Virus record (IMG/VR): IMGVR_UViG_3300017776_000121
Location: 1-28,668 of that record
Length of the DNA: 28,668 bases
Reading direction: 5' to 3' (one strand)
Source of the DNA: a virus
Both the position numbers and the translations under genes were made by a program. Numbering within the stretch: the stretch's first letter is position 1; every line of letters starts with the position of its first letter. Under the pieces are notes generated by a model that ran no database searches, had not been told where the DNA came from, and saw only the letters and a program-made list of their open reading frames with translations. This document shows, in pieces, positions 2,834 through 20,952 of the stretch.

Positions 2834-3010
2834 ATGAATATTAATCATTTATTTACTAAATCTGACCTAGTTTTTATAAATGTTCTGTTTGATTTTTACA
2901 TAAAAAATTTATCAGAAGAATATAAAAAGGGTGATAATTTAAAAAGTTATGAGCAAATATTATCTATAAGAGACAAATGTATTAATAGATTAAATAAGAG
3001 GGGGGATTAA
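2834..3010 (+). CDS. Hypothetical protein, 58 aa
   Basis: A 58-codon open frame beginning MNINHLFTK fills the gap between neighbours exactly: it starts 1 nt after the previous stop, and its TAA overlaps the next ATG (TAATG at 3008-3012). AGAGG lies about 7 nt before the start. The product is predicted helical with a hydrophobic middle (FINVLFDFYI) and a basic C terminus. No family recognised. The perfect fit between neighbours is the main reason to call it. Confidence 0.5.
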   Translation: MNINHLFTKSDLVFINVLFDFYIKNLSEEYKKGDNLKSYEQILSIRDKCINRLNKRGD

Positions 3011-3351
3011 TGGAAATTCAAACTATAAATGTAGATGAGATAAAGTCTCTGAGAAAAGAATTGGGATATAATAATGCTCAAGAATTATCAAAATTATTAG
3101 GCTTTGGTAGTGCAACTATTCCTAGATGGGAAAGCGGTATGTCTTCCATGAGTAAATCTCATGGACTAATGGTTGAGGCTTTCCTAAAAGTTCCTAGTTT
3201 TAGAGAATTTATTTTAAGCAAGAATGGTATAGATATGTTTGAAAATGGAGAATGGGTTGAAGAGGGTACAATCCATCTCTCTGAGGATCAAATGAAAGGT
3301 TTTATGAAAGACTTTGCAAAATATATGCATGGAGATAAAAATGAGAAATAA
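3010..3351 (+). CDS. XRE/Cro-type helix-turn-helix regulator, 113 aa
   Basis: Residues about 8-62 form a helix-turn-helix of the XRE/Cro type. A typical opening (VDEIKSLRKELGY) is followed by the first helix of the motif (AQELSKLLG), a turn, and a recognition helix with the family signature IPRWESG. The C-terminal 50 residues are acidic and contain a second small domain (ENGEWVEEGTIHLSEDQMKGF) of unknown function. A GGGGG(A) ribosome-binding site sits just upstream, inside the previous gene. In phages such proteins repress or activate early transcription. It is one of two regulators in the window that could bind the repeated palindromes, but nothing in the sequence proves that. Confidence 0.75.
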   Translation: MEIQTINVDEIKSLRKELGYNNAQELSKLLGFGSATIPRWESGMSSMSKSHGLMVEAFLKVPSFREFILSKNGIDMFENGEWVEEGTIHLSEDQMKGFMKDFAKYMHGDKNEK

Positions 3352-3770: not shown

Positions 3771-3956
3771 ATGATTGATAAAATATTGTTATTTTTAATT
3801 GGCATATGTGTAATGCTTATGTCTATTGTAACATTAGCTGATCCTGATGGATATTATATGCAAAGTGTCGAGGGCATACTCATAACTATATTTATAGGAT
3901 CGATAGGTTTAACCATGATACTGTTTAGTTTTTTCAGTATCTTTTTTAAAGAATAA
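3771..3956 (+). CDS. Small two-helix membrane protein, 61 aa
   Basis: AAAGGAG precedes the ATG. The product has two strongly hydrophobic stretches, about residues 5-23 (ILLFLIGICVMLMSIVTLA) and 35-58, separated by a polar loop with DPDGYY. This fits a hairpin of two transmembrane helices in the inner membrane. It is too far from the lysis genes to be called a holin on context. It is the last gene before the 300-bp gene-free stretch; the stop is immediately followed by the 5' strand of the first stem-loop. Confidence 0.6.
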   Translation: MIDKILLFLIGICVMLMSIVTLADPDGYYMQSVEGILITIFIGSIGLTMILFSFFSIFFKE

Positions 3957-4101
3957 GGGGGAGAGATCAACTCCTGAGTGGTGGGCAAAAGTGGATGCCT
4001 GAGGTTTTGTATTATTGCCCTCTCCCTAAATGCTATACATCCCTAGATAATTGTTCCCTCGTCTTTATTCGACAATTATTGTGGGCAAAACTGCGATCTC
4101 T
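3957..4101 (+). ncRNA. Candidate structured RNA / leader with competing stems
   Basis: No convincing gene lies between 3957 and 4257. The first part can fold into alternatives. GGGAGA (3959-3964) pairs with TCTCCC (4021-4026), enclosing GGGCAA (3983-3988) paired with TTGCCC (4015-4020), so the two 3' strands are contiguous. ATAATTGT (4047-4054) pairs with ACAATTAT (4072-4079). A second GGGCAA (4083-4088) competes for the same TTGCCC, and AGAGATC (3962-3968) can instead pair with GATCTCT (4095-4101). GTGGGCAAAA occurs twice exactly 100 nt apart. It matches no riboswitch class I know. It could be a leader of the 75-aa gene, a small RNA, or the 3' end of the upstream transcript. Confidence 0.35.
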
Positions 4102-4135
4102 TTAAAGTATGAACAGTTAATGTATGGAAAGCCAC

Positions 4136-4188
4136 AAAAAAGGCTCGTTTAAGCCTTATACAGAGGGGGATACCTCCCCCCTCTGTAT
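4136..4188 (-). terminator. Tandem stem-loops, minus-strand terminator
   Basis: Read on the minus strand, a perfect 12-bp GC-rich stem (4158-4188, 7-nt loop) is followed at once by a second hairpin (AAGGCT/AGCCTT, 4140-4157) that runs into a T6 tract (complement of A4136-A4141). The second hairpin plus T-run has the form of an intrinsic terminator for leftward transcription and would catch read-through past the terminator at 4516-4542. On the plus strand neither stem is followed by T residues. The rest of the gap, 4189-4257, shows nothing I can name. Confidence 0.55.
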
Positions 4189-4257
4189 CATTCCTACCAA
4201 ATCAACCTTAAGTCTCTGTGTGAGGCTTATACAACCATTAAAGGATATATCAATATT

Positions 4258-4485
4258 ATGCAGAAAAAAAAGCACGATCAACTAAGAATTAGGGATAGTC
4301 TTAAGGATATACACATACAAATCCAAAAAGAAAACAAATCTAAAACACCAAAAGAATTAGATATGCATGAAAGGTTTGAAGATGTCCCTGATAAACTTTC
4401 AGACAGAGATAAAATTGGCAGAGTAAAACGAGTATCCACCTCAGGCATTCAGCATATGCGAGGTGGCTCTACGTTTGAGCAATAG
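4258..4485 (+). CDS. Hypothetical hydrophilic protein, 75 aa
   Basis: Very hydrophilic, K/D/E/Q-rich 75-residue protein with no hydrophobic core, likely disordered or nucleic-acid-binding. The C terminus is RVSTSGIQHMRGGSTFEQ. The ribosome-binding site is weak (AAAGGA about 12 nt before the ATG). It stands alone after the structured gap and is the last plus-strand gene before convergent leftward genes. Its TAG stop is followed directly by a copy of the 16-bp palindrome. No family recognised. Confidence 0.5.
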   Translation: MQKKKHDQLRIRDSLKDIHIQIQKENKSKTPKELDMHERFEDVPDKLSDRDKIGRVKRVSTSGIQHMRGGSTFEQ

Positions 4486-4611: not shown

Positions 4612-5076
4612 TCAACTATTTCTCCAACTTTCATAGAAATCTTTTATTGGCTTAACAATTTCCCAAACATTATTTTTAATAAATTCAATATCAATTCTAG
4701 TTAAATTTCTATCAGTTATTATTTTTAATAGCACCTCGTAGCAACTAGATCCACCTGCTGATTTTAACGAGGCTAGGCATTCAGTAACTTTTCTTTTTAA
4801 TATCTCGTTATCGTTGCTCATTGTGTCGTAACTAGCGGTAACTCTAGGATTGTAGTTAGATGCCTTAATTCCAACCATGCCTGATTTATTATAATCCATC
4901 TGCAATTTATCCAAGATCATATAATTATCTAACGATATACTATCATTAAGTAACAACGTATCTAGGCAAGTCTGATCAACAACCCTCATCCTAACTTTAT
5001 TTGTTTTGCCTATAAACTCAGGCTTAACAGTTTTATTGTCAAAATGGTACGTCTTCGTCATCGTCATCTTTTTCAT
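4612..5076 (-). CDS. Hypothetical protein, 154 aa
   Basis: Last gene of the leftward operon, overlapping the primase-helicase 3' end by 38 nt if the first ATG is used; in-frame ATGs at 5067 and 5061 would shorten the overlap, and no start has a clear ribosome-binding site. The product is soluble. The first half is predicted mixed alpha/beta; the C-terminal third is helical (SCYEVLLKIITDRNLTRIDIEFIKNNVWEIVKPIKDFYESW). No known catalytic motif is visible. Its position directly behind the primase-helicase suggests a replication or transcription accessory role, which is inference only. Confidence 0.65.
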   Translation of the reverse strand: MKKMTMTKTYHFDNKTVKPEFIGKTNKVRMRVVDQTCLDTLLLNDSISLDNYMILDKLQMDYNKSGMVGIKASNYNPRVTASYDTMSNDNEILKRKVTECLASLKSAGGSSCYEVLLKIITDRNLTRIDIEFIKNNVWEIVKPIKDFYESWRNS

Positions 5077-6871
5077 AATAGTTTTTTGCTATTGGCTGAT
5101 TTGTTTTTTTATATTTACCCTTAGAAAAGCTATCAGGTAAAAGCATATCCTCTGTAGTCTTATTAACACTAATATATCTAGACGTTATCTTATCAAAAGA
5201 CAATGCACAATCCCCAATAGAACCTACCCAAGAAAATCTACATTTCCAAATCATTATCTGACTTATGCTTGACCCTGATGGATTAGGTCTGTGTACTGTC
5301 ATCCCTATATCAGCCTTAGCAAACCAAGATGCACTACCTGATATATCGTATCCCTTAGGCGGTGGTACAGTTCCATCGTCTTTCCTCATCATCTTTGTTG
5401 GATGGGCAACAAACCAAATATGTATTCCATGAGCCTGAGCAAAAACTCTAAGTTTTGTCAGCATATCAGATATCCAATCAGTTTCGGATGTTGCGGTATC
5501 TCTTGATATGTAATTATATGGATCGATTACCACTCCCCTGACCCCGTGTCGCATAACCGCCACTTTCATTCTTTCTAAAATGCTATCCAAAGATGATAAA
5601 CTGCCATCAGCTTGATAGAGAAAAGAAAAATGATCTTGCACAAATCTTTTCCCATCTTGCAATTCTTCGTGATTAAGTTTAGGTGTCATGCCATCAAAGA
5701 ATGGCTTACCTTTATGCTTACTAATTAACTTAGCTATATGTATTCTAGGCTCGTTTTCAAAAGAGCATATCCCAAATTTCCATCCTTTTTCTTTTGCTAT
5801 GTTAATCATAATCTGATCTACAAACTCAGATTTACCGCTTGATGGATGCCCCGTGACTACGGACAACTGCCCCTCTACAACTGTGTATAATTCGTCTACC
5901 TCTTCATATCCAGTAGATACACCTGAGCCTATACCTTTTTCGTAAATGTCATCAACCTCTTCATAAAAATGAGAGGCATCGTATAAACCTGAAACTGGAT
6001 ATGGTACTGGATTAGATGCCAAATCATCCAACTTTTGTCTGCCATGCTTAACTAAAACTTCATTGGCATCCTTGCAATCCTCAGGATATTCTATCTTGTA
6101 ACATCTGTCTTTACCAACTCTCCTAGCTATCTCCTCAGCCATTGCCTGACCTGATTTATCGCTATCCATAGCTATGACAACCTTGTCACATAAATCCAAT
6201 TTCTTTTTGGCATTCCAAATAAATTTAAATTTACCATCTTCATGGGCATCTATCTTGCCATCCACAACTTTCATTACTGCCCCATGCGGTATTGATACAA
6301 CAGATTTGTACCCAACTTCCATGAAAGACAAGCAATCCATCTCTCCCTCGCAGATAATTACCCAATCGTTAGTTTCAACATTATCTATGTTGTAAAAGTT
6401 TACCGCTGATCCCTGAGAAGAAAAACCTTTATCAGGAAACGATCTTATCTTTGCAAAGTCTGTACTGCCTTTGGTGGTGTACGGAAAAACTATACAAGGC
6501 ATTTCTTTTTTCTCAGAGGCTATGTATTGCTTTACATATTTTAACCCCCCTAATTTTGCCGTGTTCTCTGATATTCCCCTACTTTTTAAGTATTTTATAC
6601 TGTCTGTATTTGCTGATAAATCTGACCAATTCTTGTTAACAGCGACCAATGGCTCTCTCCTTATTAGCTTAAAATTATTATCATTAAATCGTATTGAGCC
6701 ATTCTCAGTACAATGCCAACAATTATAAACGATTGTGTCGCTATTAACTCTTAGCGATAATGTTTTCTGATCTTTTTTCTTTCTGTTTGGAGAACAAAAA
6801 GGGCAGTTTACCTTGTGTTGACCACTACCTAGTCTGAGGGCTTTTGCCCTTATATTTGATTTTAGTTCCAT
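5039..6871 (-). CDS. Primase-helicase, T7 gp4/Twinkle type
   Basis: Bifunctional replication protein that primes DNA synthesis and unwinds the fork. Numbered from the chosen start (610 aa): an N-terminal zinc ribbon C23-P-F-C26 ... C51-W-H-C54; a Toprim domain with EGEMD (E175) and DSDKSG (D236, D238); then a RecA-like SF4 helicase domain with Walker A GHPSSGKS (K347), a Walker B-like VVIDPYNYI, HIWFVAHPTK and SGSASWFAKAD. The C-terminal tail is acidic and ends DDDDEDVPF, which may bind a polymerase or SSB partner, as the acidic tail of T7 gp4 does. The start at 6871 is preferred over the upstream ATG at 6907 because TAGGAG lies just before it. All key motifs look intact. Confidence 0.93.
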   Translation of the reverse strand: MELKSNIRAKALRLGSGQHKVNCPFCSPNRKKKDQKTLSLRVNSDTIVYNCWHCTENGSIRFNDNNFKLIRREPLVAVNKNWSDLSANTDSIKYLKSRGISENTAKLGGLKYVKQYIASEKKEMPCIVFPYTTKGSTDFAKIRSFPDKGFSSQGSAVNFYNIDNVETNDWVIICEGEMDCLSFMEVGYKSVVSIPHGAVMKVVDGKIDAHEDGKFKFIWNAKKKLDLCDKVVIAMDSDKSGQAMAEEIARRVGKDRCYKIEYPEDCKDANEVLVKHGRQKLDDLASNPVPYPVSGLYDASHFYEEVDDIYEKGIGSGVSTGYEEVDELYTVVEGQLSVVTGHPSSGKSEFVDQIMINIAKEKGWKFGICSFENEPRIHIAKLISKHKGKPFFDGMTPKLNHEELQDGKRFVQDHFSFLYQADGSLSSLDSILERMKVAVMRHGVRGVVIDPYNYISRDTATSETDWISDMLTKLRVFAQAHGIHIWFVAHPTKMMRKDDGTVPPPKGYDISGSASWFAKADIGMTVHRPNPSGSSISQIMIWKCRFSWVGSIGDCALSFDKITSRYISVNKTTEDMLLPDSFSKGKYKKTNQPIAKNYYEKDDDDEDVPF

Positions 6872-7005
6872 GTTTTCTCCTACGCAATGCGAAAAAGATA
6901 GTGCCATAAAAAATCCTAGTCAACGAAAAAAAGATATTAATTTTATAAGTTTAGAAAACAAAAACTAATTCCCTAGAGTACCCCCAGATAGAACAACCAA
7001 CGTAA

Positions 7006-11478: not shown

Positions 11479-14400
11479 TTAACCTGCTTTTTTGTATCCT
11501 ACTGATCTCATAAGTATAAGACCTCTTTGCTGAAGCTCGTTTATCTTCTGTCTTCTAATTCTTATGATCTTTTTCTTAGTTTCTTCAGGTATTCTAGGGT
11601 TTCTCTCTATTTCTTTAATCTGTCTTTGCATTCTATTTCTTGCATTATCTATAGCTTTCATTCTTCCTATAATGCTTAACTGTTTCTTATTATCTTCGTA
11701 GATAGACCTGACCGCACCAATATCTCCTGATTTCCTTGCCATGTCTAGTTGTGCCTTCAACGTAAATAGGTCTTGTCTGTTTTCTAAATAGTTACCCGTA
11801 TCTGCTCTCGGGGAAGGCGTGGTTATAACCTTTCTAGCTAAGGGGATACTATTGACTAAACTACCCTCAAAGTCTCCTTGTAATGCATCGTATATGTCAA
11901 CGGGAGCCTCAAGAGTTCTCATTGTAAATCTTCCAACACCACCCGTGAAAGTTCCTATCCAATACTCCATTATGTCAGGAGACATATCTACATATCCGCT
12001 TTCTATATCGTCTCCACCCGTTAATGAATTTATCCCACTTGCAATAGATTTAGTTATTTCACTAGTATTAGACCAGTACTGAGAACTATTAGGTTTCTTT
12101 ACAGATGCGTAGGTAGGCGATTCTTTATAAATAGGGTCTCCTTTGTAGTCCTCATTCATATAAACTGAAGCAAAAGGGTCTATTACAGTAGGAAGAGCAA
12201 AGTTTAAAAAGTTATCAAAAGCGCCTATGGGACTAATAGCTTCTACAGTTGTTCCAACGATACTGCTTGTTGCTTCGCCCGGGGTGTATTCGCCTCGTGC
12301 AACCCTGCTCATACTTCTACCAAAATTAACCGCCATATTTAATCCATACGCAAGAGGTATAGTAATATGTTTTTCTCCTGTAAGACCAAAAGTTGGTACA
12401 ATTATATTATGTTCTAATATATGCTGCGGTAATTCGTCATAATCATTAATACCATCTTCATCTTCATCTCCTGCAAACAGCCCATTCATCATGTCTTGCA
12501 TAATTCCAAACACAATTAATCCTGCCCACATTTTTCTAACCTTAGGCGATTTAACAGCCGCGTTTACAAGTGCCATAGATCCTTGTAATGATGCATTATA
12601 AAATAAATACATAGAATTAAATACTGCTTTATTCTCACCACCTTTGGCAAAGTTAACAGTTACGTTCCTAGCTGCTTGAGCTGCCTGTATCTTAGACACG
12701 CCTCTATCACGAAGTGCTTTATACAAAGCAACCCTAACCCCGTTCTCAACTGCATTATTAGCATTATCAAGCACAGACATTACTGATCTTATATTTTTAC
12801 CTGCAAACTGATTTTTATTTAGCCCTAGCTTTTGTTTTATACCGCTATCAGCTACATCTCCTAAAATGCTTCCTATATTGTCTATTTGATCTTTTACGTC
12901 ACTCATTTGGTTGGTGGCATTCTTACCACCAGCAGAAACAAACTCCTTGTATATATCTGACCATTGATTAGGTGCATTTTTATCTAGAAAAGGAACGCCT
13001 AACAACTGTGCTATGCCTTTAACGGCAGATGGAGTTCCTTTAATAACCTCAGCAGTCATACCTTTTTCATCATATTCTTGCATGTTTATACCTGCTGTCT
13101 CTAAATCTCTAAAGAAGTTAGGTATTACGAATGAAGGGTTATATGTTGTATTAACTGCAGAAAGAAATCTATTAAACTTACCCATACCTCTGACAAGAAA
13201 GTTGTTTTGTTGAGGTGTTAATGCTCCGTTCATAGCTTTTGCTATTCTTGGATCTTTAATAAATATAACTCTTTCTGTTCCGTTTTCTTTATATTTAAAC
13301 TCATTATCAGATTTAATACCCATATCTCTTCTTTGAACAGGTGTTTTGTTTGTTACATCTAAACCAATCTTTTCCATTTCTTTTTTTAAAGATGCGTTAA
13401 TAGCTGTAGTTCCATCAGGTTGTTCTTCTTGGCCCTCAAGAAGGCGAGCAAACGATTGACCAACTTTATTTCTTTCAGCCCTATCTATTGAGTTATTATT
13501 TTGTGCCATCAAAGATGCAGTTAAATTTTCAGCATAATCATTTACAGCGGCTCTGCCAGTTGCTCTTTTATCCTCCCTGCCAGTTGCACCAAAGAAATTA
13601 GTATAAACTCTTTTTCTTCCGTATGTGCTTTCTAACATAGACTCAACTTCTATGTCGCTGTCTCCTTGTAACGGTACATAAGAACCATCCTGATATATAA
13701 TTATAGGCGGGTCTCTGTTAGGGTCTCTTGCATCTGCCGGTAATAAACCTGCCTCTATACGTCTGTCTATTGTGTCTTCATTTATTCTTCTAGCAAACTC
13801 CCTTAACTCATCAAATTTTGCCATTTCTGCTTGTTCTAAACTTGCATGCCATGCAATAATTTCATCAGCTTGTTGATCAGTCATACCTGATCCAGACTGA
13901 GTTTCACCTGCTGATTTATTTCTAAGATAAGCATTTCTTTGTTTGGCATGAAATGCATACAAGACCGCATCTGTCATAGCTAACTTTTTACTAATATAAT
14001 CTTTTTCTACGCTTTCAAAAAAACCCGGGGAGCCACCAGCACCCTTAATATCTCTTAACTCTTGTATTTTATCTTCACTAATATTTAATGTGTCCATTGT
14101 ATCAACCATAGGTTGAAATAACTCTTCTTGGACTTGTGTAACCTTATCTCCTACTATTCCTTGATACACTGACTCTTGCATATATGTATCCATAGCATCT
14201 GTAATTGTGAAACCATTCTTTCGTAGCTCATCCATCATAGCACCCACAGGTAACATAGCATCTTGAAAGTATGTTAATATTCTTTGCGCCCTTGCCTTTG
14301 CAAGGTCTGGCTCCATAAATACACCTAAGCCTTTAGCTATAAATCTAGATAAGTTGTCATATTTAAGTTTAAGTCTTTTTACCCTTATATCTTCTAAAAG

Positions 14401-17400
14401 TTCAGCAGAATTAGGGCTTGTTGTTTGTGTTGGGTTGGCACTAATACTAGAAAACTGAAACCTTTGTTTAGCCGCTGTGTTCTGTGGCTTAGAAAATGTA
14501 GTCCTAACTTGATATAAAGGTCTCCACTCAAACTCTTTTGGCGCAAATACTTGTCTTACATTAGCAGTAAAGTTCTTTGGCTTAACTCTTTTTACAGCTT
14601 TAAACCCTTGTGGTTCATATTTCAAAGACATAACTAGAGTTCTTTCTTGAGGAGCCTTGTTTGAAGGTCTTGGATTATCTCTAGTCCATCTCCTACCATA
14701 CTTATCTTTACTCATGGTAGATCCATCAGGAAACTTACCATTTGCATCAGGTATCATGCGTTCTTGTGTCTTTAGTGGTGCATTATCCCACTCAATTCTA
14801 ATATCATTATTGCCTACACCACCATCAGGAAACACTCTAATGCCATAATCTTTAATTCTTTTAATAGTATTTGTATTTCTAGAGTCTCTTAAATAATCAC
14901 TATACTCATTAAGCATAGAATAAACTAATTCTAGAGGGTCATTATTTCTTACATCATGATACTTTAGTATAGTCTCTGCATGAGTAGGCAGCTTTACGCC
15001 TATGTCATCAAATCTATCTCCAAACATATGCTCGTAACCATAGCCACCATACTTGCCTTTTCTATTAGCTAACTCAAAATGTTCTCCTCTAGGCATAACA
15101 ACATAGTTGTTTGTGCCATTCATAGATTGAGCCATTCCATAAGTAAAAGGATTGCCATATTTGTAGTATGCTTTTATGTCGTAACCACCAAGACCTGTAG
15201 TAGTTTTCTTTAATTGACTTTGTGGCAACATAACAAAACTCTTAGGGTCGTCTAAAGAAGCAGGTCTTCCAATCATAGAATACTTCATATCTAAAGCATC
15301 TTCTTCTAAAACAGCCGCCTCTGATCTTGGCAAACCTTCAAATGGATCAGTTTCTACGTCTGTTTTGTTTGTTCCTTGCTCTCCTGCAGAATCTCTATCA
15401 TCGCCTTTGCGAAGTTGTCCATCTGGTCTAAGGGAACCTGAGACACTAAAGAGTCTGCCTCGCTCTGCTGGGGCGATCCTAGTGATTGCGTCTGCGATTC
15501 TTTCATTGCTTACTCCTCTTTCTTTTAATAATTGTATAGCTCCATCTAAGTAGTCGTTGTCATCTCCTTGACCTTTTCTAACACCAGATGCAAACCAAAA
15601 TCTTTTTTCTGCAAACCATTGCTGTGCTTGAAAGTCAGCCATAGTTAGGTCTATTTTACCACCAGATCCATCTTTTAATATTTCTCTGGCTCTATTAGTT
15701 ATTTTTCTTATAACAAGTCTTTCTCCACCATTTGTAGGGTCTTCTTGTAATTGATTTTCATGATTTGCCACAAGTCTTTCTGCAGCTTTTTGCATTTCTG
15801 TTTTTACTGGTCTATTACCTTCAAACTCTTTACTTCCAAATTTAGTTTGAAAATTATCACTTAATACTTTAGAAAACTCAAGAGCATTGCCTCTTGTAAC
15901 ATTATCTATGCCCATAGTTTTCATGGCATATTCAATTTCATTTATGTCAAATTCATTTAACGGATCTGCATATAAAGTTTTATTTTTTCTTGTGCTTATA
16001 CCCTGTAAATTATTTAAAACTCTATCAAAATTAGCATCTAATGTTACTTGTTTTCTTGGTTTTTGAAAAGGTCTACCTATAAGTCTATTAAACATTCTCA
16101 TAAACCACATATCCATAGTCAAAGCATCATAGTTGCCACTAAGATTTTGAAAAAATCCTTCTCCTATCTTAGCACCAATAACATATGATCCCGTAACTTC
16201 AGTTGTTGAGTACTCAGAAGCAGGTACTTTATAAGGAATCTCAGTACCTACTGGATTTTTAACTGTTGATCTTTTTTTAGCTATTTCTCTAGGAATAGTT
16301 AATAACAAACCTTTTATTCTAGGGTCTTGCCTTAACTTGGCAGGAGTAGTCTTCATATTCATAAGCTCATATATTTGCTCAGAACTTTGACCTTGATTCT
16401 TTAACGCATTATAAAATGCAAAAGAATTTTCCATTGATTTGGCAGAATCTCCCCAACCTTGTATTGGAAACCTTCTATCTTCAACAACTTCACTTGAATT
16501 AACCCAAGCATCATAAATTTTACCTGCATAACCAAAATTAGGAACAGCACCAATACCATTAGATGTAACACTTAATGCCCAATCAAATGCTAATCTATTA
16601 TCAACATTCTTTGCTATATCTTGATAAAGACCAACGTCAGGGTCTTGCAGTAATGCTTTAGCAGCTTTTAATGTTCTGTCATACCACCCTAAAGCGCTTT
16701 GATCTTGATTATGTGCCGCAAATCCTTCAGCTGCCATCATAGTCGCTACATCTTCTTGTGCTTTTTCTGCTATAGCTGGGTCATCAGAAAATATATCAAA
16801 CGTAGCAGCATTACCCGCAAAAACTTCGTATCCCTTAGCTTTGGCATGATTTAATGGGGCATGAGCTACAAGAACATTATTTGCTTTAGCTTCTGTGGCT
16901 TTTTCTGGATCAGTTTGATATTCTGGCTGAACATTAAAAACACCAGTTTTTGGCTCTTGACCTTCCTTTGGTTCTGTAAAAGGATCAATCATTCCTGTGG
17001 TATATTGATTTGCAACAGTGAACTCTATGAGAGGCTTGCCATTCGGGCCGAGTCTTTCAGTAGCTAGTTCTATTGGGTTTTGGCTTATTGTAGAATATTT
17101 TATTCTTTGTCCGGATGGATCTTCACGCCTTGCCTCAACAAATTCTTGACTATATTGTCGTATATTTGATCCAATTCTTGCTCTGCGGTCGCTACTGTAA
17201 GTACGATCTTGTTTGAGTCTTCGGATTCCTTCTTCGGTTTTTGTTTCATAGAACTCTCCTAAGTCAAAAATTGCTAACTGATTTCCTGCTTCTGCAGTAT
17301 ATAATGCATCTCTAGGGTCTTCAATAACCATAGTTGCATCTAGATAAAACAAACCATCACCATCAGGATTATCTTCTGTCTTTTTATTTAACCATCCACC

Positions 17401-20400
17401 TGCATAAACTTTATTATCTAAACTTGCTCCACCAACTATTTTGGTCATTATCTGCACATTCCTAGCAAAATCTCTTATTAGACTAGGTGTGATTAATTCA
17501 GGTCTTGTTACGATCTCAGCAGCCTTAACTGGAGCAACCGCCTTGCCTTTATTAGGAATAATAAATGTATCAGGATCTATTGTGAAACCATCAGGATTGT
17601 CTTTTATAAAACCTATTAACCTATTTTCAAATCCCTCAGATGTTTCTGATATCTTAGAATATTTAAAATTAGACTTACCTTCAAATACAGGGTTTCTAGC
17701 CATAACTAATGGGCCGACCTGTATAACACGGTCCGCAGAAGCAACAGGCTGAGTAGTCATTCTGTCATAAAAATATGAATGTCTTTCAGGATCATATCCA
17801 ACCTGAACATATGACGGGTCGTTCATAGCCGCTACAGCCTCTGCATGAGCTGCATCAGGCGTAGTTTTCTCTAAGTTACCTTCTATGGTAGCAAAAGGAC
17901 TCTTTGCCCCACCCATAGCTACCTTTAAACCCTTTTCTTCTTTTGCGGTTCCCATTAAAAAATTTGCATTATTTACTATTGCTACACTGTCATGTGATAT
18001 TGGGGCATCTTTATTCTTAGATAATCCTAGTCTTACAGTTTCAGCAGAGCCATGTATTGTCGGAACCCAAACCCCTTTTCTTGTATAAGCTGGGATATCT
18101 AATCTTAACTGTACTTCAGTTCCTTCTGGAACATTATCCAAAGCATTTATTTTTTCTGCTTGTTTATCAGTCAGTGCAAAACGCATCTCTTCAACTGTTG
18201 CAGGTGCCGGTACAGTTTCATACGGCACTATCGGCTTTACTTTATTTACTAACTTATCATACTGCTCATATGTAATTTTACCTTCTGATAATCTTTTTGC
18301 TGATTTCTGGAGTGCGTCTAGTCTAGCAGTAACGTCTGTAAATGATTGCTTTATTCTTTCTATATTACCTAGCTCAGGTCTTATGTACCCGGCAACAACA
18401 CCAGCAGTAGAGAACTTTTCATTACTTTTGGCAGCTTTTGGAGTGGTTTGCCTCTTTTTAATCTCTGTTTCTGTCTTACTAGAAGCAATATTAGCAAATA
18501 TTTGATTAGACTTAGTAAATCCAGCATCATAATTACTTGTAAATATAGCTTTTATAATTCTAACTATTCTGTCAAATAAACCTTTAGGCTTGCCAACTAC
18601 TTTAAATCTGCCATTTGCATAGTCTCTAAACATTTCTGCAACAGCTTCTTCTTGCAACCCTTCCTCAGTCATGCCTTCTTGATTTCTATATATGGCTGTA
18701 GCTCTTTCCATATATGTGTATTCTTTTGTCTCAAATTTTCCGTTAACTTCTACTACATATTTTCTTTTTGTAGCCGCTGTAACTAAAATAGCATAATCAG
18801 CATCAGTAATGGCACCCATATCTCTTAAGGCATGTATTATTTCGTGGTTTAAAACACCAGATAATTTCTTTGTTAGTTGTGCCTCTGTAAGATTTGGATC
18901 ATATAAGTCCATAGCCAAGCCAATAATACGCTTACCATCAGGAGTTGATGTAAAATAACCCTCTATAGCAGGATTAAGGTTGCCTTTATCATCCGCAATA
19001 ATTGATTTACCTTGTAAATTAACATCGCCTATACCCATATCATTTAATTGTTTTTTTAAATTATTAAGTACAGAAGTTAATTTTAACTTATACTCATCTG
19101 TATAAGGTGATTTTGCAGCTTGATCAGACTTTGTTTTTGATGTGTAATCAGGAACAACATTATCTGCATCTACCTGCTCTGTTTTTTCTGTTTTTACTTT
19201 CTTAGAAGCAGCTTCTAATATGTCTGCCTCATCCTTTAATTTTAAATATTCTTGAGCAAGCGCATCTTTTTCTTCTTCAGATACAGTTTTGCTTTGAAGA
19301 TTAAGTATTTCTTTAGCTCTTTGATTTATAGCATCTGACTTCGCTTTGATATCCAAAACTTTTTCATCTGCTTTAATATATCTACCTTTTTTATCTTTAG
19401 TAATAAGACCTTCTTGCTCTAAAGATTTTAAAGAGTTATCAACAGTTGCGTTTGTTATCTTTACAGAGTCACCAAAAACATTTTGTAAAGATTTTTTTAA
19501 TGCATTTTTGCTAATTTTGCCATTTACAATCAGATCTTCTATTGCAATAGCTGCTTGTTTATTCTTAACGCTTTCAGCATCTTCTTTTTGTTGTGTAAGT
19601 ATAGGTTTTTGCTTACCCATTTCTCTTTGCGCGGCACTAGCACCAATAACATCTTTTAATTCTTCAATAGAAACTTCCGCACTAAGATCCATACCGAGCA
19701 TTGATCTACGCTTAGCAATTCTCTCTGCTTCTTGTTTTGGTAAATTTTGTAAAGATATACCTAAGAAAGGCTGGTTTGTTTCTCTGGCAGCCGCCATAAT
19801 AGCTGACGCATTTTGTTCACCTTTAGTCTTAAGTTCTTCTATAGACTCAGGGACAACTGATTTTTCTATTTTTTCAGTAGGGCTTTGTTCTTCGTTTTCA
19901 GCAACTGGCTTTAATGACTTAGAGTAATTGTCATAGTTTTCTTTTCTTTTTAATGCCTGTCTATTTAAATCTTTTATATCAGCGTCAAGCTGCATTTCTT
20001 TCTTATAAAACTTGTTTAACTGTCTTCCTCTTACACTATCAATAACCAGATTTAATGCGGCACCCGCTCCACCACCGTACACTGCATCATCATAAGCACT
20101 TTGACCAACCTCTAAATCAGGATTGTATTGTCCCTTTTCAATCATATCTTGAACAACACCAGCAAAAACTTCTTGGCTACCTTCCGCTAACCCAACACCA
20201 AATGCTCTTTTTAACCTGCCGCCTATTGTTAGCAATGCAGCATCTGTAGCGTCTTTAGGGACTTTTTTAAGAATCTTCATGGCAGTACCAAGAGTTCTAA
20301 ACATAGGAGTGAAAGGTAAGGCTTCTGTTGTTCCTAACAATCCACTTAATGCTACAGCATTTCTTTTGGTGTCTTCATCTATTTCACCACCATTCTCAAT

Positions 20401-20952
20401 AAAATTTGCCATTCTATTTAATTGATCAGCAGATTGTAATGCGGCACCTTGTGTAGCCATTGTTCCTAAAGCACTAGCACCTGCCACTCTTGCTCCGCCA
20501 CCTAATAAACTTGCACCTTTGGCTACAGCTGTACCCGGAACAAAGAATGACAATAAAGAACCTAATGCCTGTCCAGATTTACTAGAGACACTTTCATTCA
20601 TATCAAATGTATTTTGTAATGATTCTACTTTTTCATTAGACCATTCTTGTGCAGCCTTACCAAAGTCTGTAGATCCTATATCATATCCACCAACATACTC
20701 TCCAAGAGCTGATAGACCACCGGGTATTTGGGCAAAGCTAGAAAGCGCTCCTCCAAGAGTAGACTTACCAAATGTTAATAGTCCACCTTCCTCATCTGAG
20801 GCCGCTTCTTCTGCAGGGCCCTCAACAAGGACACCATCGTTAGATATAAAGTTTTGTATCTTGTCAAACTCTTCAGGGTTTGGATTATCCCCCTCTATCT
20901 CAAAGTCATATAACTTTCCAGATACAGGACTTATAGTTGAGTACATTCCCAT
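11479..20952 (-). CDS. Giant phage polyvalent protein with zincin motif and LPD38-like region
   Basis: A 3157-residue multidomain protein, one third of the window. Seen in order: acidic start; G/A-rich hydrophobic stretch (about 57-175); EGSQEVFAGVVQDMI near 255; coiled-coil-like charged segment (about 320-350); winged-helix-like region (about 470-530); zincin region with HEIIH (H703, E704, H707) and EEAVAE (E773, possible third ligand); a region with GYDPERHSYFYDR near 1050; a long region of unknown fold; and a C-terminal region from about 2600 (NPSFVIPNFFRDLETAG) resembling LPD38, with hydrophobic segment near 2805-2825 and a basic coiled-coil end. Such architecture is known for polyvalent proteins, thought to be packaged and injected to counter host defences. 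Last gene of the late operon; domain names beyond the zincin are tentative. No frameshift is seen. Confidence 0.8.
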   Translation of the reverse strand: MGMYSTISPVSGKLYDFEIEGDNPNPEEFDKIQNFISNDGVLVEGPAEEAASDEEGGLLTFGKSTLGGALSSFAQIPGGLSALGEYVGGYDIGSTDFGKAAQEWSNEKVESLQNTFDMNESVSSKSGQALGSLLSFFVPGTAVAKGASLLGGGARVAGASALGTMATQGAALQSADQLNRMANFIENGGEIDEDTKRNAVALSGLLGTTEALPFTPMFRTLGTAMKILKKVPKDATDAALLTIGGRLKRAFGVGLAEGSQEVFAGVVQDMIEKGQYNPDLEVGQSAYDDAVYGGGAGAALNLVIDSVRGRQLNKFYKKEMQLDADIKDLNRQALKRKENYDNYSKSLKPVAENEEQSPTEKIEKSVVPESIEELKTKGEQNASAIMAAARETNQPFLGISLQNLPKQEAERIAKRRSMLGMDLSAEVSIEELKDVIGASAAQREMGKQKPILTQQKEDAESVKNKQAAIAIEDLIVNGKISKNALKKSLQNVFGDSVKITNATVDNSLKSLEQEGLITKDKKGRYIKADEKVLDIKAKSDAINQRAKEILNLQSKTVSEEEKDALAQEYLKLKDEADILEAASKKVKTEKTEQVDADNVVPDYTSKTKSDQAAKSPYTDEYKLKLTSVLNNLKKQLNDMGIGDVNLQGKSIIADDKGNLNPAIEGYFTSTPDGKRIIGLAMDLYDPNLTEAQLTKKLSGVLNHEIIHALRDMGAITDADYAILVTAATKRKYVVEVNGKFETKEYTYMERATAIYRNQEGMTEEGLQEEAVAEMFRDYANGRFKVVGKPKGLFDRIVRIIKAIFTSNYDAGFTKSNQIFANIASSKTETEIKKRQTTPKAAKSNEKFSTAGVVAGYIRPELGNIERIKQSFTDVTARLDALQKSAKRLSEGKITYEQYDKLVNKVKPIVPYETVPAPATVEEMRFALTDKQAEKINALDNVPEGTEVQLRLDIPAYTRKGVWVPTIHGSAETVRLGLSKNKDAPISHDSVAIVNNANFLMGTAKEEKGLKVAMGGAKSPFATIEGNLEKTTPDAAHAEAVAAMNDPSYVQVGYDPERHSYFYDRMTTQPVASADRVIQVGPLVMARNPVFEGKSNFKYSKISETSEGFENRLIGFIKDNPDGFTIDPDTFIIPNKGKAVAPVKAAEIVTRPELITPSLIRDFARNVQIMTKIVGGASLDNKVYAGGWLNKKTEDNPDGDGLFYLDATMVIEDPRDALYTAEAGNQLAIFDLGEFYETKTEEGIRRLKQDRTYSSDRRARIGSNIRQYSQEFVEARREDPSGQRIKYSTISQNPIELATERLGPNGKPLIEFTVANQYTTGMIDPFTEPKEGQEPKTGVFNVQPEYQTDPEKATEAKANNVLVAHAPLNHAKAKGYEVFAGNAATFDIFSDDPAIAEKAQEDVATMMAAEGFAAHNQDQSALGWYDRTLKAAKALLQDPDVGLYQDIAKNVDNRLAFDWALSVTSNGIGAVPNFGYAGKIYDAWVNSSEVVEDRRFPIQGWGDSAKSMENSFAFYNALKNQGQSSEQIYELMNMKTTPAKLRQDPRIKGLLLTIPREIAKKRSTVKNPVGTEIPYKVPASEYSTTEVTGSYVIGAKIGEGFFQNLSGNYDALTMDMWFMRMFNRLIGRPFQKPRKQVTLDANFDRVLNNLQGISTRKNKTLYADPLNEFDINEIEYAMKTMGIDNVTRGNALEFSKVLSDNFQTKFGSKEFEGNRPVKTEMQKAAERLVANHENQLQEDPTNGGERLVIRKITNRAREILKDGSGGKIDLTMADFQAQQWFAEKRFWFASGVRKGQGDDNDYLDGAIQLLKERGVSNERIADAITRIAPAERGRLFSVSGSLRPDGQLRKGDDRDSAGEQGTNKTDVETDPFEGLPRSEAAVLEEDALDMKYSMIGRPASLDDPKSFVMLPQSQLKKTTTGLGGYDIKAYYKYGNPFTYGMAQSMNGTNNYVVMPRGEHFELANRKGKYGGYGYEHMFGDRFDDIGVKLPTHAETILKYHDVRNNDPLELVYSMLNEYSDYLRDSRNTNTIKRIKDYGIRVFPDGGVGNNDIRIEWDNAPLKTQERMIPDANGKFPDGSTMSKDKYGRRWTRDNPRPSNKAPQERTLVMSLKYEPQGFKAVKRVKPKNFTANVRQVFAPKEFEWRPLYQVRTTFSKPQNTAAKQRFQFSSISANPTQTTSPNSAELLEDIRVKRLKLKYDNLSRFIAKGLGVFMEPDLAKARAQRILTYFQDAMLPVGAMMDELRKNGFTITDAMDTYMQESVYQGIVGDKVTQVQEELFQPMVDTMDTLNISEDKIQELRDIKGAGGSPGFFESVEKDYISKKLAMTDAVLYAFHAKQRNAYLRNKSAGETQSGSGMTDQQADEIIAWHASLEQAEMAKFDELREFARRINEDTIDRRIEAGLLPADARDPNRDPPIIIYQDGSYVPLQGDSDIEVESMLESTYGRKRVYTNFFGATGREDKRATGRAAVNDYAENLTASLMAQNNNSIDRAERNKVGQSFARLLEGQEEQPDGTTAINASLKKEMEKIGLDVTNKTPVQRRDMGIKSDNEFKYKENGTERVIFIKDPRIAKAMNGALTPQQNNFLVRGMGKFNRFLSAVNTTYNPSFVIPNFFRDLETAGINMQEYDEKGMTAEVIKGTPSAVKGIAQLLGVPFLDKNAPNQWSDIYKEFVSAGGKNATNQMSDVKDQIDNIGSILGDVADSGIKQKLGLNKNQFAGKNIRSVMSVLDNANNAVENGVRVALYKALRDRGVSKIQAAQAARNVTVNFAKGGENKAVFNSMYLFYNASLQGSMALVNAAVKSPKVRKMWAGLIVFGIMQDMMNGLFAGDEDEDGINDYDELPQHILEHNIIVPTFGLTGEKHITIPLAYGLNMAVNFGRSMSRVARGEYTPGEATSSIVGTTVEAISPIGAFDNFLNFALPTVIDPFASVYMNEDYKGDPIYKESPTYASVKKPNSSQYWSNTSEITKSIASGINSLTGGDDIESGYVDMSPDIMEYWIGTFTGGVGRFTMRTLEAPVDIYDALQGDFEGSLVNSIPLARKVITTPSPRADTGNYLENRQDLFTLKAQLDMARKSGDIGAVRSIYEDNKKQLSIIGRMKAIDNARNRMQRQIKEIERNPRIPEETKKKIIRIRRQKINELQQRGLILMRSVGYKKAG
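19074..19089. repeat. Palindrome AAGTTAANNTTAACTT, copy 6 (inside a gene)
   Basis: AAGTTAATTTTAACTT within the giant gene. On the coding (minus) strand it is read in the frame that gives K-L-K-L-T, followed by S. It falls in a charged linker just before the zincin region, where sequence constraint is probably low. Confidence 0.85.

Follow-up and report, generated by a model that had tools for sequence, protein, structure and literature searches.

The window analysed here, a 28,668-nt stretch of DNA, derives from an uncultured marine phage, whose distant kin (~29–34% protein identity) are phages that infect Pelagibacter, Roseobacter and various other bacteria of aquatic habitats. Near the end of a + strand operon, two small ORFs, a transmembrane-type one at 3771–3956 and a second at 4258–4485, flank a stretch that is gene-free on the + strand, as an earlier note on this DNA had claimed, and that holds the RNA described below. 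Only one small gene separates this RNA from convergent terminators, the neighbouring gene (5039–6907) encodes a primase-helicase (PHROG 239), and the window contains no tRNA. An open frame runs through the stretch in 3 of 46 relatives on the + strand and in 0 of 46 on the − strand; conserved coding was rejected, as frames are broken in nearly all relatives and lengths are not multiples of three. Elsewhere, the window encodes an HTH_3-like protein (3010–3351) and, on the − strand, a 3157-aa protein (11479–20952) that carries, close to its C-terminus, a Large polyvalent protein associated domain 38 (LPD38). It also carries the palindrome AAGTTAANNTTAACTT in seven perfect copies, where 0.03 would be expected, at 2186, 4486, 7006, 10325, 11463, 19074 and 21480, five of them between genes or at gene ends and two inside genes. 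These copies are conserved in relatives and are possibly operator or stoperator-like sites.

Using the primase-helicase gene as bait, we collected 60 loci from IMG/VR, most of which hold a homologous copy of window positions ~3944–4260 by BLAST. Pattern scans, a second primase scan with alignment and then profile searches enlarged this set to 49 distinct core sequences, carried by at least 61 contigs of marine phages in IMG/VR. The RNA is present in all 61 clade loci that extend at least 1.7 kb past the primase, at 899–1600 nt past the primase stop, and the covariance model finds a single copy in each long clade record searched. It gives no match in the searched records of a remoter clade, whose primase is 58% identical, nor in those of the isolates HTVC023P, CRP-902, DSL-LC04 and 023Pt_psg01; a free pseudoknot descriptor, tried for the same distant clade and isolates, is too unspecific. 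No similar DNA was found in 50,697 phage records. Two pattern matches in 84,980 prokaryote species genomes (L101 and L102) lack a profile match and were rejected as chance, and in the literature searched on related pelagiphages and Roseobacter phages we found no mention of a noncoding RNA.

The structured core spans ~180 nt (3957–4136, + strand, as for all elements below) and is supported by profile and covariance model matches in the phage clade together with covariation among the distinct sequences. Helix PY pairs CTATACAT (4033–4040) with ATGTATGG (4120–4127), with 99.7% of cells paired and two-sided changes in four pairs. It encloses hairpin C and stem-loop PX and closes the three-way junction that the three helices form. 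Hairpin C (4041–4085) combines CCC at 4041 and GGG at 4083 with ATAATTGT at 4047 and ACAATTAT at 4072, while PX (4089–4118) pairs AACTG at 4089 with CAGTT at 4114. The PX loop holds the 3′ strand of P1 (GATCTCT, 4095–4101), a pseudoknot with AGAGATC at 3962–3968 that crosses both PX and PY. A second long-range contact, the loop–tail pseudoknot PZ, is made by hairpin A (3983–4000; GGGC/GCCT, 100% of cells paired), whose 10-nt loop AAAAGUGGAU pairs through GTGG (3991–3994) with CCAC at 4132–4135. Hairpin B (4001–4022, GAGG...CCTC) varies in length and sequence and is missing from several relatives. Among the unpaired segments, the nearly invariant ACUCC at 3970–3974 reads [A/T]CTCC in 46 of 46 full-length copies, and the junction strands are A-rich and nearly invariant (AA.GC, GRGYAAA, AA and GAAA). 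The 5′ end, which reaches the PX loop as P1, probably reaches the hairpin C loop as well: P0, in which the G-run GGGGG (3957–3961) pairs with 4056–4060 and which appears in relatives as GGGGTT/AACCCC and TTGGGG/CCCCAA, is likely a sixth interaction, and we regard it as provisional. It was put in the place of a 5′ GGGG/CUCC hairpin, which fails in the L018 clade.

The helices persist while their sequences change. P1, with two-sided changes in 7 of 7 pairs, occurs as AGAAACC/GGTTTC, AAGTCC/GGACTT, GGAGTTC/GAACTCC, AAAGCAC/GTGCTTT and ATGATGC/GCATCAT; PX as GCCT/AGGC, TCTG/CAGA and AAATG/CATTT; PZ as ATGAGT/ACTCAT, GTGCA/TGCAC, GTGT/ACAC and GGTTAG/CTAACC; and PY as CTATGTC/GACATAG, while hairpin A moves from GGGC/GCCU to GCGU/GCGU, GCGA/UCGU and UUC/GAA. 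P1, PX, PY and PZ persist, with different sequences, even in L044 and L058, which are very divergent copies. When register-free duplex energies of cognate strands were compared with those of permuted strands (31 non-redundant copies, 20,000 permutations), z was −10.7 for P1, −9.6 for PY, −9.3 for hairpin C, −6.4 for PX and −4.3 for PZ (0/20,000 each), and −3.1 for P0 (9/20,000). By column count, 93.0% of 1804 aligned cells are paired, against 35.6–49.9% in slid controls, with two-sided changes in 33 of 44 pairs and 0 of 500 shuffles as good. A tree-aware count, before which one ambiguous gap in the alignment, next to the 3′ strand of P1, was shifted in eight rows, gave 55 double compensatory branch events against a null mean of 3.0 and maximum of 8 in 300 simulations. 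Every helix except P0, which is not significant in this test, exceeds its own null maximum, including hairpin C (19 events against 4), P1 (10 against 3) and PX (8 against 3). When pairs were tested one by one in an R-scape-like manner against a phylogenetic null, 1 of 44 was significant and none outside the structure; because this test has little power here, we used tests at the level of helices. G-U pairs far outnumber A-C mismatches on the + strand (120 versus 30), which places the RNA on this strand and led us to reject both a − strand RNA and a DNA cruciform. Judged from covariation, these data show that the + strand encodes a compact ~180-nt RNA with a conserved multi-pseudoknot fold.

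Could this fold be one state of a switch? The earlier note had proposed mutually exclusive pairings, in which TTGCCC (4015) joins either of two GGGCAA strands (3983 and 4083), and AGAGATC (3962) pairs with GATCTCT (4095) as the alternative to a domain closed at TCTCCC (4021). The strings lie at these positions, as do the two copies of the direct repeat GTGGGCAAAA (3981 and 4081, exactly 100 nt apart), and both folds can be computed from the window sequence: folding 151 nt yields the AGAGATC/GATCTCT stem with unremarkable stability (z −1.2), and folding 304 nt yields the TCTCCC-closed domain with moderate stability (z −3.2). Mutual exclusivity, however, fails in relatives. TTGCCC is present in only 3 of 48 copies, permuted-strand duplex energies reveal no cognate specificity for GGGCAA:TTGCCC and GGGGAGA:TCTCCC (z −1.0, −0.3 and −1.2), and the 100-nt repeat is not preserved as a repeat, each copy being part of its own helix. 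The TTGCCC pairing is confined to a few close relatives, and since it is rare and without cognate specificity, the stem named as the alternative, AGAGATC/GATCTCT, is the conserved one. The missing covariation and conservation that the note had named as grounds for refutation thus apply to the TTGCCC pairings and are contradicted for AGAGATC/GATCTCT, which is real and conserved by compensation as P1, though not as an alternative stem. Relatives show one static, multiply pseudoknotted fold with no conserved alternative pairing; a two-fold switch is largely refuted, and we consider it very improbable. The broader proposal of a structured noncoding RNA is strongly backed by covariation in homologous phages, and most of its helices (hairpin A, PX, PY and PZ) are additions to the original description.

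Two further stems follow the core. Pairing in hairpin D (4140–4157) is weak in the column count, and hairpin E (4158–4188) is a conserved accessory stem with 98.7% of cells paired and two-sided changes in 6 of 10 pairs; both are missing in L021. On the − strand, a terminator scan reads the hairpin D region as a terminator-like hairpin with T6 behind it, oriented towards antisense transcription. Its T-run faces away from the primase operon, and the U-tract side is absent in L058 and L044. Five relatives carry a 54-nt extra hairpin directly after the PZ strand (L014:8116–8169, L051:8281–8334, L139:6831–6884, L140:6831–6884 and L143:7286–7339), at the same insertion point behind the core in otherwise distant relatives, as if a cassette had been exchanged.

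What does the genomic setting say about function? The next ORF begins ~85–120 nt after the RNA, at ~110–120 nt in most relatives, and this constant spacing, the common downstream protein family of most relatives, with the C-terminus 'TPKELGMDERFED..GRV.K.STS' in most copies, and an aptamer-like fold with an invariant junction are all consistent with a cis-regulatory leader of ORF 4258–4485, either a ligand-binding aptamer or a protein-binding translational operator, for which hairpins D and E would serve as linker or expression platform. However, the RNA is kept beside unrelated downstream genes in three clades (L048/50/51, L058 and L043–45), and in L048, L058 and L044 the upstream gene differs as well. 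The downstream N-terminus is changed in other relatives, L021 lacks hairpins D and E, and a conserved alternative pairing is absent. Because the flanking genes are swapped in some relatives while the RNA stays, a gene-specific riboswitch is unlikely, and we consider a cis leader of either kind a minor possibility. The family of ORF 4258–4485 itself consists of small mosaic proteins with a shared C-terminus and interchangeable N-termini, which are basic, glycine-rich or zinc-ribbon-like (L021/L024/L036). Conservation at one syntenic site, independent of the genes, points instead to a stand-alone structured noncoding RNA or to a generic cis element. The latter might be an RNase-resistant block, a processive antitermination element or a packaging signal, and the location near the + operon end would suit it; an antitermination element, however, would have little to act on, with one small gene only before the convergent terminators. 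We regard this group of cis elements as quite improbable.

Comparison with known RNAs does not assign the RNA to a described family. Rfam 15 at gathering score yields no family anywhere in the window, in agreement with the earlier statement that no riboswitch class is recognisable, and permissive E-values return only chance-level matches for the window copy and for the divergent copies L044 and L018. No covariance model of Rfam 15, including riboswitches, ribozymes, sRNAs, GOLLD, ROOL and pRNA, matches. A riboswitch would combine a conserved aptamer and a conserved alternative pairing with one gene or pathway, whereas here alternative pairing is absent and the downstream genes differ. As in a structured phage noncoding RNA, the sequence is noncoding, and its secondary as well as its tertiary helices covary among homologous phages. 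In architecture, the RNA recalls the intergenic-region IRES of dicistroviruses, eukaryotic RNA viruses in which ~200 nt with three pseudoknots lie between two ORFs and the 3′ tail is paired to a loop. Similar size, location between two ORFs and loop–tail pairing make this an analogy of architecture only; the downstream ORFs here are ~110 nt away and have their own Shine-Dalgarno-like sequence. The phi29 pRNA is likewise a small phage RNA that uses loop–loop pairing, but has different helices and belongs to a different type of phage. The nearest in kind are two phage noncoding RNAs, GOLLD and ROOL (PMC12286853), together with marine motifs, for example those in Weinberg et al. 2010 (PMC2864571). 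GOLLD and ROOL are phage-encoded, structured, of unknown function and not bound to a gene, and contain several pseudoknots or kissing interactions (PMC12286853); our RNA is also multi-pseudoknotted and independent of one gene. In contrast to these much larger RNAs, which measure ~660 to >800 nt, are often found close to tRNA islands and assemble into cages (PMC12286853), it is ~180 nt long and has no tRNA in the window and no Rfam match. The marine metagenome motifs manA, wcaG, PhotoRC-II, Ocean-V and Ocean-VI include some found in marine phages (Weinberg et al. 2010, PMC2864571); those present in Rfam 15 do not match, and Ocean-VI (PMC2864571), which has no Rfam number, lies outside this Rfam-based comparison. 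None of the known families available for comparison has a member that works like this RNA.

Small RNAs with multiple pseudoknots are commonly ribozymes, aptamers or RNP cores, and to our knowledge few are known from phages. As an A-rich invariant junction is a type of core that aptamers and ribozymes can have, catalysis is conceivable by analogy. A ribozyme or processing element might cut the polycistronic transcript between the upstream transmembrane ORF and the downstream gene; the compact multi-pseudoknot fold, its A-rich invariant junction and a 5′ end directly behind the upstream stop codon in most relatives are compatible with such a role. However, no Rfam ribozyme family matches and no obvious invariant cleavage dinucleotide is present outside the fold, and we think this role unlikely.

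The best explanation, to which we give about an even chance, is that the conserved knotted RNA is co-transcribed and would act in trans as a stand-alone structured noncoding RNA. Its transcription would either be part of that of the small-gene operon or start at a promoter within the upstream ORF, although no promoter for the RNA was identified, and the transcript would fold into a stable knotted body. In trans, this body might serve as an RNP or oligomeric scaffold or might regulate the infected cell, in contrast to a switch placed before one gene. Against such a role count its placement between an ORF stop codon and the next ORF, as for a cis element, and the one downstream protein family common to most relatives.

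The RNA occurs in every examined clade member that spans the site, and divergent copies fix its structure by covariation. At ~180 nt it can be made in vitro, and both fold and activity are directly testable. The family has been missed by current RNA catalogues and hence by marine virome annotation. More tentatively, and with somewhat less than even odds, it could form a so far undescribed class of phage RNA, compact and multi-pseudoknotted, that has a biochemical activity of its own and equals the adjoining replication genes in strictness of conservation. This activity may be catalysis, or that of a scaffold or RNP acting on the infected marine bacterium.
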